From NCBI GenBank assembly GCA_025943965.1, contig JAPCWD010000006.1, positions 1 to 64,000 of the forward strand: a DNA stretch of 64,000 bases, read 5' to 3'. This stretch comes from Synergistaceae bacterium DZ-S4 (lineage in GTDB: Bacteria > Synergistota > Synergistia > Synergistales > Synergistaceae). The translations under genes and the position numbers were made by a program. Positions 1 to 45,019 of this stretch are shown piece after piece; positions within the stretch are counted from its first letter, which is position 1; every line of letters starts with the position of its first letter. The notes beneath the pieces were generated by a model. The model was not told the DNA's origin, did not search any database, and saw only the letters and a list, made by a program, of their open reading frames with translations.

Positions 1-124
1 GTTACTCACCCGTCCGCCACTAAAGTATCTCTAAAGCAAGCTTCTTCAATACTCCCGTTCGACTTGCATGTGTTAAGCACGCCGCCAGCGTTCGTCCTGA
101 GCCAGGATCAAACTCTCCGTTTGA
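1..124 (-). rRNA. 16S rRNA, 5' end only (runs off the left edge)
   Basis: The minus strand reads as the beginning of a bacterial 16S rRNA. The universal 27F primer site lies at 97-116, followed by GACGAACGCTGGCGGCGTGC, the variable V1 hairpin and the conserved GTGGCGGACGGGTGAGTAAC at the left edge. The mature 5' end is placed about 8 bases upstream of the primer site by analogy with other 16S genes. Only about 124 bases are present; the rest of the rRNA operon lies to the left. V1 is short and compatible with Synergistota, but I did not run a classification. Confidence 0.97.
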
Positions 125-41367: not shown

Positions 41368-42300
41368 TCAACCGGAGCATTTCTTCAGAAGTCTCTCCCA
41401 CTCCCGGTCAACATCGGCCTGTCCCTGCGCTATTAGGTCAGTTCTCTCTTTTCCCTTTTTAAAGAGGTGGGAATATCGTCCCTGCATCATAAGGAAATCA
41501 TCAACCGGGACCGGGGTCTTGGGGTCGTACGAGAGTACATGCCTGCCCTCAATGACCTCATAGACCGGCCAGAAACGGCTGTCTGCGGCGAGCTTGCATA
41601 CCTTGACCTGGTCGGCAGGATCGATCTTCCAGAAGAGCGGGCATGGAACAAGTATGTTTACAAACGCCGGGCCCGGCGTCTCGATCGCCCTTTTGACCTT
41701 TGCGATGACATCTATCGGGTCGTGCAGGGTCGTCTGCGCGACATAAGGTATGTCATGCGCGGCAACTATTTCAGTAAGATTCTTTGCCCTCTGGAGCTTA
41801 CCGGGAATAACGCTTCCGGCAGGCGATGTAGTGGCGCTCGCGCTGACAGGAGTCGCGCTGCTTCTCTGTGCTCCGGTGTTCATGTAGCCCTGGTTGTTGT
41901 AGCAGATGTAGGTGAAGTCATGTCCTCTCTCAAGCGCTCCCGAAAGGGACTGAAGCCCTATGTCATATGTGCCTCCGTCGCCTCCTACAGCTACGAACTT
42001 GATATTTTCCTTCACTGTGCCCTTTCTGCTCAGCACCCTGTGAGCCGCCTCAACGCCGGAAACTCCGGCACCGGCATTTTCAAAAGCGATGTGCATGAAC
42101 GGTACCCTCCACGCGCTGTAGGGGTATACCGTCGTAGACACTTCAAAACATCCGGTGGCACCCACTATCACGACAGGAGCCTCGACAGCCATTAGACCCT
42201 GCCTTACCGCAGTCGGGGCTCCACATCCGGGGCACATCCTGTGCCCCTCTGTGAGGGGGCTCTCCCTCTTCGTAAGTTCCTTAAGGTTAATTCCCGCCAT
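41368..42300 (-). CDS. 2-oxoacid:ferredoxin oxidoreductase, beta subunit
   Basis: A 310-residue thiamine-diphosphate-binding subunit (PorB type). CPGCGAP near the N-terminus and further cysteines (GATGCFEVST, CPLFWK) bind the 4Fe-4S cluster. The ThDP/Mg2+ motif is VGGDGGTYDIG and YNNQGYMNTGAQRS. The ATG at 42300 has AAGGA 8 bases upstream and overlaps the alpha gene by 14 bases. The four-subunit enzyme oxidises 2-oxoacids to acyl-CoA plus CO2 with reduced ferredoxin, or runs in reverse. Which oxoacid is used cannot be read from the protein, but the upstream leader points to isoleucine metabolism. Confidence 0.92.
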   Translation of the reverse strand: MAGINLKELTKRESPLTEGHRMCPGCGAPTAVRQGLMAVEAPVVIVGATGCFEVSTTVYPYSAWRVPFMHIAFENAGAGVSGVEAAHRVLSRKGTVKENIKFVAVGGDGGTYDIGLQSLSGALERGHDFTYICYNNQGYMNTGAQRSSATPVSASATTSPAGSVIPGKLQRAKNLTEIVAAHDIPYVAQTTLHDPIDVIAKVKRAIETPGPAFVNILVPCPLFWKIDPADQVKVCKLAADSRFWPVYEVIEGRHVLSYDPKTPVPVDDFLMMQGRYSHLFKKGKERTDLIAQGQADVDREWERLLKKCSG

Positions 42301-43483
42301 TTTTTTCATCCTTTTCAAGCAGACCGATATACCTAACGATATCGCTGAAGTCTTTGTCCATAAGCCTTGAGAAAACCTTTTCTGCATCCCTGGGATAGAG
42401 ATCCCTGCCGCCGAGCCCGAAGAGGTACTCCTGCAGCGGCACCCTTTCGCTCAGTCCGTAGAGGGCCGACTTGACCTCGGCTGCCAGCGGGGCCGTACCG
42501 CCTATACTCGCACTTCTGTCGAGGACCGCGATCCCCTTCTTGCCCTTTGCCAGCTCCCTGATCCCTTTCGAAGGGAAGGGGCGGAAGAAGCGCACCCTCA
42601 GACATCCGGCCTTAACGCCCTTTTCCCGCATCTCATCGACGACATCCTTTACAACGCCGGTCGCGGAGGACATGATTACGATGAGGTAGTCGGCATCGTC
42701 GGCACGGTAGGCGTCTATCGCCGGATATTCTCTGCCCGTGTATTCCGCGAGCTCTTTAGTAAGCTCCCTGTAAACTTCAGGGACCCTGTTCATCCCCTCG
42801 ATCTGGTTCCTCTTGATCTCAAAATAATACTCCGACATCGTAAATGAGCCGTATGATACGGGGTTGTCAACGTCAAGGAGCGGGTATTTGGCTTTCCTCT
42901 CGCCTACGAACATTTTGACAGCCTCGTCAGAAAGCATTTCGACAGGCTCAAAGCAATGACTTGTAATAAAGCCGTCCTGGCATACGAATACAGGGGTGAG
43001 AACATCCTCGTGTTCCGCGAGTCTTACCGCCAGAAGGACCGAATCGTATACCTCCTGCGCATCTTCACAGTAGATCTGTATCCATCCCGAATCGCGCTCG
43101 GGCATGCTGTCTGAATGGTCACAGTGGATGTTTACGGGTGCTCCGAGGCTCCTGTTTACGAGTCCGAAGACTATCGGAGCACGGAATGCTGCCGCTATCG
43201 GAAAAATCTCGTGCATCAGCGCCACTCCGTTGGCGCTTGAGGCTGTCATGACCCTCGCACCGGATATTGATGCGCCGACGCATGCCGTTATCGCCGAATG
43301 CTCACTCTCGACCGCGACATACTCCGAATCGACCTTGCCGTTAGCCACGAACTCAGCGAACTTCACCGGGATCTCTGTCGAGGGTGTGATCGGATATGCT
43401 GCTACCACATCGGGGTTCACCTGTCTCATAGCTTCCGCAAAGGCAAGATTGCCGGAAGTCATCTCTTTTCTCTTATTTAACAT
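42287..43483 (-). CDS. 2-oxoacid:ferredoxin oxidoreductase, alpha subunit
   Basis: A 398-residue PorA-type subunit. It has VVAAYPITPSTEIP, the glutamate segment YVAVESEHSAITACVGASIS, ASSANGVALMHEIF, the domain II transketolase C-like segment IAVLDRSASIGGTAPLAAEV, and GGRDLYPRDAEKVF near the C-terminus. It forms the active-site half opposite the beta subunit. The start overlaps the delta gene by 11 bases. The order gamma-delta-alpha-beta is the one found in archaeal and Thermotoga pyruvate and branched-chain enzymes. Confidence 0.93.
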   Translation of the reverse strand: MLNKRKEMTSGNLAFAEAMRQVNPDVVAAYPITPSTEIPVKFAEFVANGKVDSEYVAVESEHSAITACVGASISGARVMTASSANGVALMHEIFPIAAAFRAPIVFGLVNRSLGAPVNIHCDHSDSMPERDSGWIQIYCEDAQEVYDSVLLAVRLAEHEDVLTPVFVCQDGFITSHCFEPVEMLSDEAVKMFVGERKAKYPLLDVDNPVSYGSFTMSEYYFEIKRNQIEGMNRVPEVYRELTKELAEYTGREYPAIDAYRADDADYLIVIMSSATGVVKDVVDEMREKGVKAGCLRVRFFRPFPSKGIRELAKGKKGIAVLDRSASIGGTAPLAAEVKSALYGLSERVPLQEYLFGLGGRDLYPRDAEKVFSRLMDKDFSDIVRYIGLLEKDEKNGGN

Positions 43484-43817
43484 GGTCTGCCACTCTCCCC
43501 GGATCTTCCCCGTGTTCCCTGCACTCGTTGCTGAAATCTGCTTCCTGATGCATTGATATTGCTCCTACGGGGCATACCTGGGCACATACCCCGCACCCCT
43601 TGCAGAAAAACATGTTTATTCCGTTCACTTTTCCTTCTCCGTTCGTCTCTATCGAGGCATCGGGACACTGCAGCCAGCATTTCAGGCATGATATGCACTT
43701 GTTCCGGTCAAGGACGGGGCGCATGCTCCTCCACAAACCTGTCTCGACATCCCTGGCTGACGCGCCCCATGATATCGTTCCGGGGGGGACGTCCTGCCAG
43801 CACTTCGGCTTGCTCAT
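43473..43817 (-). CDS. 2-oxoacid:ferredoxin oxidoreductase, delta (ferredoxin) subunit
   Basis: A 114-residue subunit with two [4Fe-4S] motifs: CISCLKCWLQCP and CKGCGVCAQVCP. They carry electrons from the ThDP centre towards free ferredoxin. The N-terminal ~35 residues (with GTISWGASARDVETGLWRSM) match the family's pre-ferredoxin segment. It overlaps the gamma gene by four bases and the alpha gene by 11. Confidence 0.95.
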   Translation of the reverse strand: MSKPKCWQDVPPGTISWGASARDVETGLWRSMRPVLDRNKCISCLKCWLQCPDASIETNGEGKVNGINMFFCKGCGVCAQVCPVGAISMHQEADFSNECREHGEDPGRVADHVK

Positions 43818-44398
43818 GCCAATACTGCCTCCTCGCGGCCGCGGAGGATAGCTCTGCGGTTGGCTTCAAGCACAGGGGCGGGAAGCTGCTTCATTTTTCT
43901 TGTAAAGTGGTCGGCAAAAGTTTCTGCTGAAACGTCTGTGAAGAGGTGTGAGAGTGCTCCGAGAAGAGGCGCGTTCGGTCTGTTCTGTCCCAGCTCCTCA
44001 AGCGTTATCTTCGTTGCGTCGACAACAAGGACCCTGGCATCCGACGAAAGGTTCATCCTACTGCGGAGCACCTGAGCGTCCTCCGGTGTGTTTACGACAT
44101 AGACGGCATCGGACACACAGCCCTCGCACGGGTTCGAGCTCACCACCATAGTGGGGTCGACTATGACGACTATGTTTGGATTTTCTACGCTGCAGCGGCG
44201 GCGGATGGGAGTATCCGACACCCTGTTGTACGCTCTCATCGGAGCGCCCTGACGTTCTGCACCGTACTCAGGAAACGCCTGAACATGCTTGCCCTCTTCA
44301 AAAAGGACCTCTGCGAGTATTGCCGACGCGCTCTTTGCGCCCTGTCCGCCGCGTCCATGCCATCTAACCTCAAGTGTTCTCTTCTTTCTGTTTTCCAT
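43814..44398 (-). CDS. 2-oxoacid:ferredoxin oxidoreductase, gamma subunit
   Basis: A 194-residue PorG-type subunit with the N-terminal Rossmann-like motif EVRWHGRGGQGAKSASAILA, then FPEYGAERQGAPMRAYNRVS, which is strongly conserved, and VENPNIVVIVDPTMV. It completes the active site near CoA. The ATG at 44398 has GGAGGAG 5 bases upstream; an upstream in-frame start at 44416 overlaps that site. It is the first structural gene after the leader-terminator region at 44465-44655. Confidence 0.95.
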   Translation of the reverse strand: MENRKKRTLEVRWHGRGGQGAKSASAILAEVLFEEGKHVQAFPEYGAERQGAPMRAYNRVSDTPIRRRCSVENPNIVVIVDPTMVVSSNPCEGCVSDAVYVVNTPEDAQVLRSRMNLSSDARVLVVDATKITLEELGQNRPNAPLLGALSHLFTDVSAETFADHFTRKMKQLPAPVLEANRRAILRGREEAVLA

Positions 44399-44464
44399 AA
44401 TTACTCCTCCATCCATTCTATGTTTAAAGATTTGTATTCCTCAAATCCTCTCGGAAGAAAAAAA

Positions 44465-44493
44465 ATGGAGCCCTTCAAAATGAAGGGCTCCAT
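44465..44493 (-). terminator. Attenuator terminator in the oxidoreductase operon leader
   Basis: ATGGAGCCCTTCA and TGAAGGGCTCCAT form a perfect 13-bp stem with a 3-base loop, followed on the minus strand by eight T (U in RNA). It lies after the Ile-rich leader ORF and about 70 bases before the gamma gene. The left arm's GGAGCC is complementary to GGCTCC inside the leader ORF, so an alternative antiterminator can form. Confidence 0.92.
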
Positions 44494-44515
44494 CCGTTCG
44501 CTTGGTAATACAGCG

Positions 44516-44593
44516 CTAAGCGCCGTTCCTGCGAGGAGGAGCCGCGTTGATAATTATAATAATGATGTTCTGCATCATTTTATTCGACAACAT
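44516..44593 (-). CDS. Ile-rich leader peptide (transcription attenuator)
   Basis: A 25-codon ORF translating as MLSNKMMQN, six Ile, then NAAPPRRNGA. The six consecutive Ile codons are ATC, ATT, ATT, ATA, ATT and ATC (44549-44566). GGAGG lies 7 bases before its ATG, a perfect spacing. It lies between a consensus promoter (44627-44655) and an intrinsic terminator (44465-44493). This is the layout of the ilv/leu/thr attenuators of other bacteria. When charged tRNA-Ile is scarce, ribosomes would stall on the Ile codons, GGCTCC (44537-44544 region) would pair with GGAGCC of the terminator, and the oxidoreductase genes would be read. Function inferred, not known. Confidence 0.88.
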   Translation of the reverse strand: MLSNKMMQNIIIIIINAAPPRRNGA

Positions 44594-44626
44594 CAAACTT
44601 CCTCCCTTTCGTGCAGATTGCTGGGT

Positions 44627-44655
44627 ATATTAACATCATTTTATAAACATGTCAA
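44627..44655 (-). promoter_or_regulatory. Promoter of the attenuated oxidoreductase operon (TTGACA-17-TAATAT)
   Basis: TTGACA at 44650-44655 and TAATAT at 44627-44632 on the minus strand with a 17-base spacer. The start would be near 44620, about 27 bases before the leader peptide ATG. Confidence 0.85.
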
Positions 44656-44739: not shown

Positions 44740-44769
44740 TTGACAATTTTTAATCATCGTTCATAATAG
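44740..44769 (+). promoter_or_regulatory. Promoter for the helicase leader RNA
   Basis: TTGACA at 44740-44745 with CATAAT at 44762-44767 (spacer 16) or TAATAG at 44764-44769 (spacer 18). Divergent from the oxidoreductase promoter. The adjacent AAGTAAGTAAAG repeats at 44682-44717 form an A/T-rich, phased stretch between the two promoters. Confidence 0.75.
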
Positions 44770-44774
44770 CTTGG

Positions 44775-44839
44775 TTGTAGAAATCTTCTACATATGGGGC
44801 AACAAAAAGGGAGGCCCTTAAGGGAGCCTCACTTTTTTT
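44775..44839 (+). ncRNA. Small terminated leader RNA upstream of the helicase gene
   Basis: Downstream of the promoter the transcript would contain a perfect 7-bp hairpin (TGTAGAA at 44776-44782 with TTCTACA at 44786-44792). A second hairpin follows (GAGGC...GCCTC, 44811-44830), then seven T at 44833-44839, an intrinsic terminator. The helicase start is another 180 bases on and no second promoter is evident. So this is either an independent small RNA of about 65 bases or an attenuator controlling read-through into the helicase gene. The 44840-45019 part holds only the GCATCC/GGATGC hairpin near 44996 and the ribosome site. Confidence 0.6.
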
Positions 44840-45019
44840 GCCGATATCACAAGGCTTGGAAAAGCCATTTGCTGTTGCACGAAAACCTTTCCGCTATCGC
44901 GGCCTGTTCCGCTGGGGAGTTTTATGATCGCCTTACCTGAGTTGTGCCACACGTAGGGATTTCATGCAATGGCGCAGCAGAGCATCCTTTCTGGATGCAA
45001 CATGGGAGGTAATCATATA

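Follow-up and report, generated by a model that had tools for sequence, protein, structure and literature searches.

An attenuator that senses charged tRNA-Ile likely controls a dedicated anabolic POR-type oxidoreductase in Synergistaceae bacterium DZ-S4, and this enzyme most likely makes 2-oxobutyrate; no transcript, growth or enzyme data yet bear on this interpretation. The stretch of DNA that was analysed (64,000 nucleotides, hereafter the window) is placed in contig 6 of a 2.15-Mb genome. Its leader locus is very likely a ribosome-mediated transcription attenuator, a conclusion that comes from computation without transcript data and in which the response to isoleucine is inferred. Most of the features that define such an attenuator were found computationally: a translatable short ORF with a Shine-Dalgarno sequence, a conserved run of codons for one amino acid, a terminator, and an antiterminator that excludes the terminator. 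Isoleucine synthesis via propionyl-CoA carboxylation has been reported since 1969, and a rival enzyme is still discussed (PMC7476758). A leader that reads isoleucine codons only names a candidate operon for this carboxylation and predicts the direction in which its enzyme runs.

Leader and operon in the window

All switch elements and the POR-type operon are on the minus strand of the window, and the switch elements, promoter included, lie within 44655 to 44458. A sequence-only reading had proposed a TTGACA-17-TAATAT promoter, a GGAGG-7-ATG start, a 25-codon ORF with six isoleucine codons and a perfect 13-bp terminator with eight U. All of these held, with the strand, which had been left unstated, now assigned. 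The leader elements are:

44627..44655, minus: sigma-70-type promoter TTGACA-17-TAATAT with TG before the -10 (10 of 12 consensus matches)
44601..44606, minus: Shine-Dalgarno sequence GGGAGG of the leader ORF, 7 nt before the ATG (direct reading)
44516..44593, minus: leader ORF MLSNKMMQNIIIIIINAAPPRRNGA, 25 codons plus TAG, ATG at 44593 (ORF translation; orthologues in 27 of 28 readable family loci)
44549..44566, minus: sensor of six successive Ile codons, ATC ATT ATT ATA ATT ATC (sequence)
44538..44543, minus: A5 (GGCUCC), antiterminator 5' strand, within the leader ORF right after the Ile codons (6 of 6 pairs with A3 in 34 of 34 leaders)
44531..44535, minus: B5 (CUCGC), antiterminator 5' strand (compensatory changes in relatives)
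44511..44525, minus: inner hairpin CGGCG-CUUAG-CGCUG with the leader stop codon in its loop (99.3% of cells paired across 27 leaders)
44497..44501, minus: B3, antiterminator 3' strand, GCGAA in the window (one pair lost) and GCGAG in most relatives
44486..44491, minus: A3 (GGAGCC), antiterminator 3' strand and also a piece of the terminator 5' arm
44458..44495, minus: intrinsic terminator and U tract (stem 44495-44463, eight T at 44465-44458)

The terminator stem is a perfect 13-bp helix, with 15 pairs counted, and the leader RNA folds 5.5 standard deviations better than dinucleotide shuffles (z -5.47). Rfam 15 families, including the T-box riboswitch, gave no match at gathering score at the window leader, and an Rfam 15 search of 11 leader loci returned nothing but one tRNA. 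The operon encodes four subunits:

43814..44398, minus: gamma subunit, POR-type, first gene (TIGR02175, 171.5 bits against a cut-off of 81.1; PF01558)
43473..43817, minus: delta subunit, 2x4Fe-4S ferredoxin-type (TIGR02179, 94.3 bits against a cut-off of 60.05)
42287..43483, minus: alpha subunit with POR_N and PFOR_II domains (NF040682 PorA, 478 bits, cut-off 550; PDB 9bt4_B, 1.4e-85)
41368..42387, minus: beta subunit, TPP-binding (PF02775; PDB 9bt4_C, 7.8e-78)

For the gamma gene, 44398 is the most probable start, in preference to the ATG at 44416, because GGAGG directly precedes 44398. A POR-type four-subunit enzyme requires gamma, delta, alpha and beta subunits with POR, Fer4, POR_N and TPP domains, and all are present. 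The equivalog cut-offs for pyruvate synthase are not met (NF040682, 478 of 550 bits; NF040683, 175 of 270; NF008819, 323 of 405), though these are the nearest models; for alpha, beta and gamma, POR models give better scores than VOR models do. The window genome also encodes a separate single-chain PFOR. Elsewhere in the window, a divergent DEAD-box helicase gene with a promoter and a leader of about 200 nt was noted at 44740-44842 on the plus strand; a hairpin followed by a T run precedes its start, so this gene could have an attenuator of its own. Of 13 loci compared, 9 retain the helicase as a neighbour. A partial 16S rRNA gene lies at the window edge (1-123, minus strand).

Antiterminator pairing and the proposed switch

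In the proposed mechanism, scarcity of Ile-tRNA would stall the ribosome on the Ile codons and leave GGCUCC..CUCGC free to pair with GCGA(G)..GGAGCC before the 3' arm of the terminator exists, and the operon would then be transcribed. With ample Ile-tRNA, the ribosome would reach the stop codon in the inner hairpin loop, where it would mask that hairpin and the second helix and let the terminator win; folding supports this step for some footprints only. Stalling, the isoleucine response and antiterminator loss at the stop codon are all inferred.

Comparison of 34 leaders, 27 before POR and 7 before a dehydratase, supports the pairing. The earlier proposal that GGCTCC pairs with GGAGCC as an antiterminator held: helix A, between GGCUCC after the Ile codons and GGAGCC or GGGGCC in the terminator 5' arm, is present in all 34 leaders. 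The 5' side of this helix is invariant within Ile leaders, and its compensatory changes stem from other leader types. Helix B (CUCGC/GCGAG) is fully paired in 28 of the 34, with compensatory changes to CUCGU/ACGAG and CUCUC/GAGAG in relatives; in the window genus its outermost pair is lost (C-A) and UCC/GGA pairs lengthen helix A instead. For helix B and the inner hairpin together, 96.7% of cells are paired and 5 cells changed on both sides, values as high as which occur in none of 500 shuffles, and sliding partners used as a control reach at most 53.7% pairing. Two other covariation measures are weaker: the counts of pairs altered on both sides (2) and of additional pair types (5) are each reached by 19 of 500 shuffles.

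The antiterminator and terminator are two mutually exclusive folds. Folding of the leader RNA, a check that had been suggested with the initial proposal, was carried out with the terminator 3' arm omitted and the ribosome footprint alone blocked. With an Ile codon in the A site, the mean probability of the A helix is 0.97-0.98 for Ile 1, 3 and 4, 0.83 for Ile 5 and 0.30 for Ile 6; stalls at Ile 1-5 are predicted to allow the antiterminator. For a ribosome positioned on the stop codon, the corresponding values are 0.26, 0.31, 0.86 and 0.00 for an assumed 5' reach of 12, 14, 16 and 18 nt, and antiterminator loss at the stop codon is not robust because it varies with the assumed footprint. Clean loss was seen when all upstream RNA was blocked too, which overstated the effect. 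It is possible that a helix closing over a bound ribosome is sterically hard to form, which was not computed. Folding without a ribosome and without the 3' arm also gives the antiterminator, and not a protecting hairpin, which is unlike the classical trp design. When the complete terminator is present it wins at equilibrium, even for a stall at Ile 1, and the switch must therefore be kinetic.

Conservation and the proposed link to isoleucine

The attenuator proposal could be checked by comparison with orthologous operons and would have been refuted by relatives that lack the Ile codons or terminator. It passed: Ile codons, terminator and antiterminator occur in 27 of 28 readable loci of the family Synergistaceae, and the refuting case was not seen in the family apart from one locus. 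The gamma gene is found at E ≤ 1e-20 in 29 of 52 family genomes. One locus was taken for each of these 29, excluding a second, contig-end fragment in G006 (L031), and a locus whose gene runs into the contig end (L030) was set aside to leave the 28. Among these, the Ile leader is kept in 27 (26 detected by regular expression and L026, with one Met inside the Ile run, by reading), and a terminator lies upstream of POR in 27, as counted with a finder checked against a positive control. Family leaders have 5-6 Ile, differ at their N-termini and end in AAP(P/S)-like residues. A promoter-like stretch persists at the sole family POR locus without leader or terminator (L023, G036:C214). The leader DNA pattern matches 26 of 52 family genomes and the leader-core pattern 34 of 185 phylum genomes, with no matches for the reversed control in either search; only one family-pattern match (G042:C37) lies away from the POR gamma gene.

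Outside Synergistaceae, POR orthologues occur in 28 genomes, from which 20 loci were fetched and 19 were readable; these 19 show no match to the switch. The RNA model has no hit at any of the 20 loci and only 3 of the 19 have weak terminator-like hairpins, so the POR switch looks like a Synergistaceae innovation. One non-family locus (L145, G081) has a 13-codon TTG ORF that ends in four Ile, without a terminator. A broader DNA-pattern search of bacterial genome contigs gave 107 matches in 106 stretches, of which 26 have at least three Ile codons upstream; 21 of these 26, in 20 records, are all from Synergistota, Synergistales, Synergistaceae or Synergistes, and the taxonomy of the other five was not seen. 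The remaining matches, many from Streptomyces, look like chance. Extra copies of the Ile leader were also observed. Tandem leaders occur at L119 (G075:C70, minus strand, 9486-9399 and 8050-7959), where the upstream copy no longer has an in-frame stop and its gene is truncated, which suggests a degenerate duplicate. Another Ile leader, a shorter one (VIIISSAVPPLGIGD), at L319 (G035:C104, 184-93) has its target past the contig end, in a genome that already carries the POR leader.

The POR-type enzyme is proposed to run reductively, converting propionyl-CoA, CO2 and reduced ferredoxin to 2-oxobutyrate, which would feed IlvBN, IlvC and IlvD to give isoleucine; by inference, the enzyme would occupy the place held by threonine deaminase in other bacteria. 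An anabolic role for the operon in isoleucine supply is likely. The biosynthetic direction, suggested in the initial reading, remains inferred, with indirect support from an Ile leader on a dehydratase, the separate PFOR and a Leu/Val leader on the ilv/leu operon. For the reaction itself we lean only modestly towards propionyl-CoA to 2-oxobutyrate; the substrate is inferred and propionyl-CoA supply was not looked at. This reaction fits better than one from 2-methylbutyryl-CoA, the alternative named earlier, because the subunits are nearer POR than VOR and ilvBNCD, complete in the window genome, is present.

The ilvN-ilvC-leuA-leuC-leuD-leuB-ilvB-ilvD operon of the window genome has its own Leu/Val-rich leader, MRIDSLIRDITSLVLVLVLLISSGSPEVADA, with the same layout (leuC, leuD and leuB were named by eye):

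11725-11651 of G000:C1:206000-225900 (L113), minus: ilv/leu leader core, Leu/Val-rich, with terminator, before ilvN-ilvC-leuACDB-ilvBD

The Ile-only leader would therefore be reserved for an isoleucine-specific need. Six genomes in two other families (f4 and f5) have the same Ile leader before a threonine/serine-dehydratase-like PLP gene, and no POR gamma gene was found in these six at 1e-30. Two of these dehydratases were tested; they reach 196 and 198 bits where the curated cut-offs require 331, so their substrate is not certain; threonine to 2-oxobutyrate is the simplest reading because the Ile leader precedes them. G075 shows the same split with another enzyme, with a Leu/Val leader on ilvN-ilvC and an Ile leader on the dehydratase. 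Together, the Ile leader on a dehydratase and the separate Leu/Val leader likely indicate an Ile-only supply step, inferred to be, most simply, that of 2-oxobutyrate.

POR appears to be an extra enzyme because 24 of the 27 leader-POR genomes also have a single-chain PFOR. In families f10-f12, all 14 POR-bearing genomes, with leaderless POR, lack a PFOR match at 1e-100. The PFOR search scored only the three best candidates per genome, and some POR-bearing genomes outside Synergistaceae have PFOR without the leader, so the association of PFOR with the leader is not strict. Strict complementarity between POR and threonine dehydratase was rejected: a long IlvA-like gene accompanies POR in 14 of the 27 leader-POR genomes, in all 14 below the cut-off of that family, and a fifteenth genome (G047) has one in fragments. 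The window genome has two shorter dehydratases, in an apparently catabolic cluster. These threonine-dehydratase-like genes count against POR as the sole source of 2-oxobutyrate. No citramalate synthase passes the TIGR00977 cut-off in the 52 family genomes, and the homologue in the window genome is a true LeuA; a citramalate route was therefore set aside.

Leaders across Synergistota and rival readings

A covariance model trained solely on the 27 POR leaders (R1) was used to search 185 phylum genomes, with matches at E ≤ 0.01 in 52. It recovers the Ile leaders of f4/f5, which had been held out, with values of 8e-11 to 3e-8, and also finds non-Ile leader types at E 1e-6 to 1e-2; 21 of 28 further matches were read. 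R2, a further model made from 43 leaders that include R1-found ones, matches 31 of 40 chosen genomes at E ≤ 0.1, with 86 matches in total. Reading 24 of these (one shared with the 21 from R1), together with the window ilv leader, gave 45 distinct elements, and the 12 residues before the core were tabulated for 28 of them. Agreement between codons and downstream genes is an independent check because the sensor codons lie outside the modelled region. Leaders before PaaK-like ligases (phenylacetate-CoA ligases) contain Phe and/or Tyr in 14 of 14 cases (2 to 7 residues, eight of the leaders having just 2 or 3); 13 of the 14 have more than one open frame, and the frame shared with Ile leaders was chosen. 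All five ilvN leaders have 8 or 9 Leu/Val/Ile, 2 to 5 Met occur in each of the seven leaders that precede MetQ or PLP enzymes of the Met pathway, and both leaders before sulfonate-binding-type proteins (sulfonate transporter) have a run of Cys (CCC). NCBIfam backs 27 of the 28 gene names. Cut-offs are exceeded by the ilvN genes, by four genes for O-acetylhomoserine sulfhydrylase (TIGR01326) and by one SsuA gene; PaaK, MetQ and one cystathionine-synthase-like enzyme are best matches below cut-off; and the second gene of L327 has no NCBIfam match at 1e-40. The simple rule that pairs Phe/Tyr sensors with PaaK is contradicted by L326 (G151:C113), where a Met-rich leader (MMMCMM) precedes a PaaK-like gene (321-325 bits) and then a binding-protein-like gene.

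Across 13 folded leaders the A helix changes in step among types, from GGCUCC/GGAGCC for Ile to GGAUCC/GGAUCC for Met, GGGUCCC/GGGACCC for Leu/Val and GGGACCC/GGGUCCC for Phe/Tyr. The window genome has four class members, namely Ile/POR, Leu/Val/ilvN and two before tandem PaaK-like ligases. Each ligase of that tandem pair (L355, G000:C14:33700-38900) has its own leader, one Phe-type (QFSF) and one Tyr-type (VYSY), and such pairs also occur in G041 and G007. PaaK makes arylacetyl-CoA, and POR-like enzymes can add CO2 to acyl-CoA; PaaK under Phe/Tyr leaders and POR under the Ile leader would both fit amino-acid synthesis by reductive carboxylation. A bolder interpretation, which could equally well prove right or wrong, is that Synergistota inherited one modular attenuator chassis with exchanged sensor codons (Ile, Phe/Tyr, Met, Cys, Leu/Val). 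Through this chassis the end-product amino acid would control a CO2-adding synthesis that runs from acid through acyl-CoA and 2-oxoacid to amino acid, with PaaK-type ligases under Phe/Tyr and a POR-type 2-oxobutyrate synthase under Ile replacing threonine deaminase. A switch design with varied sensor codons allows the regulons of amino-acid supply to be mapped in an anaerobic phylum that has been little studied, and suggests that Synergistota run such reactions for synthesis as well as fermentation. The leader set is also natural material for studying how attenuators change amino-acid specificity.

Several rival explanations accept the attenuator and differ over the enzyme. It might carboxylate 2-methylbutyryl-CoA to 3-methyl-2-oxovalerate and so salvage 2-methylbutyrate for isoleucine, a role that would likewise be Ile-specific. 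This is unlikely: alpha, beta and gamma are nearer to POR than to VOR models, a full ilvBNCD set is present, and threonine dehydratase, the likely gene under the Ile leader elsewhere, yields 2-oxobutyrate and not a branched-chain acyl-CoA. The enzyme might instead be a pyruvate synthase that joins acetyl-CoA and CO2 for amino-acid synthesis, with isoleucine as a mere starvation signal. The best model and structure matches of the subunits are indeed pyruvate synthases, and in f10-f12 no pyruvate:ferredoxin oxidoreductase besides the leaderless POR was found in any of the 14 POR-bearing genomes. However, valine and leucine need pyruvate too, yet the POR leader is Ile-only and the ilv/leu leader is Leu/Val, and we regard a pyruvate synthase as improbable. 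Synergistota include amino-acid fermenters, which might favour a catabolic enzyme that oxidises an Ile-derived oxoacid, with the Ile leader as an induction device. We consider this very unlikely, since the geometry favours read-through on an Ile-codon stall, which is the wrong sign for a catabolic enzyme, and same-layout leaders with nameable targets precede genes for synthesis, uptake or acid activation.

A further alternative concerns the class rather than the enzyme. The layout common to Ile, Phe/Tyr, Met, Cys and Leu/Val leaders could reflect convergence of ordinary attenuators, which remains possible: in any such attenuator the sensor codons must be followed by a GC-rich antiterminator strand, with a stop codon close by, and codon frames relative to the core vary between leader types. 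Against convergence, a model trained on Ile leaders alone detects the other types at the E values given above, and the leaders have several details in common: a stop codon inside or adjoining the inner hairpin loop, a start of the G-rich/UCC kind and C-terminal codons that resemble each other.

Like the ilv, leu, thr, his and trp attenuators of Proteobacteria and Actinobacteria, this locus has a short ORF with regulatory codons, a terminator, a competing antiterminator and a biosynthetic operon. It differs from them in that its target is a POR-type oxidoreductase operon in the phylum Synergistota, and in that the antiterminator strand lies inside the leader ORF after the sensor, with the stop codon in its inner loop. 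Leader-peptide systems were known only from Proteobacteria and Actinobacteria before Firmicutes were added (Naville and Gautheret 2010, PMC2965389). The ilvB-II uORF motif of Corynebacterium (PMC11109978, PMC10272879) similarly has an Ile/Leu/Val-rich uORF, a terminator and an antiterminator; unlike the POR leader, it controls ilvBNC in one genus and is unrelated to POR. Two candidate Phe/Tyr-codon uORFs near shikimate genes were described in a survey of five genomes, among them that of the synergistete Thermovirga lienii (PMC6429828). These resemble the present class in having Phe/Tyr leader ORFs but are associated with shikimate genes, not PaaK. The relevant sections of that paper, supplements excluded, contain no Ile leader or POR and do not name the source genome of the uORFs; the survey may have touched a member of this class. 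The sequence-only reading knew of no report for a por/vor-type operon, and none was found for an attenuator on a POR or VOR operon, or for this leader class, in the open-access literature searched (supplements excluded). Amino-acid synthesis by reductive carboxylation has been described for rumen and other anaerobes (PMC7356843, PMC7476758), and reductive carboxylation of propionyl-CoA to 2-ketobutyrate for isoleucine in several microbes (PMC7476758, citing Buchanan 1969, Monticello 1984, Eikmanns 1983). The 2-ketobutyrate:ferredoxin oxidoreductase activity (Buchanan 1969, in PMC7476758) is the same reaction as that proposed here. That work reports an activity and discusses a rival enzyme (PFL), whereas the Synergistaceae case is a defined operon tied to isoleucine by its leader.

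The other elements read with R1 and R2 are less easily assigned. L328, L335 and L371 have no sensible leader and look like chance, and L333 is unreadable with Ns in its leader. L357, L362 and L370 have leader-like ORFs without a nameable target gene; the leaders of L323, L359 and L368 are plausible, and their targets were named by eye only. Leaders with Leu/Val/Ile (L324, L336, L363) or aromatic codons (L332, L358) precede transporter-like membrane-protein genes. The L324 and L358 targets, tested against NCBIfam, gave no match at the thresholds used, and the five targets are perhaps amino-acid transporters. At L324 and L336, the transporter-like gene is followed by an electron-transfer-flavoprotein-like gene.
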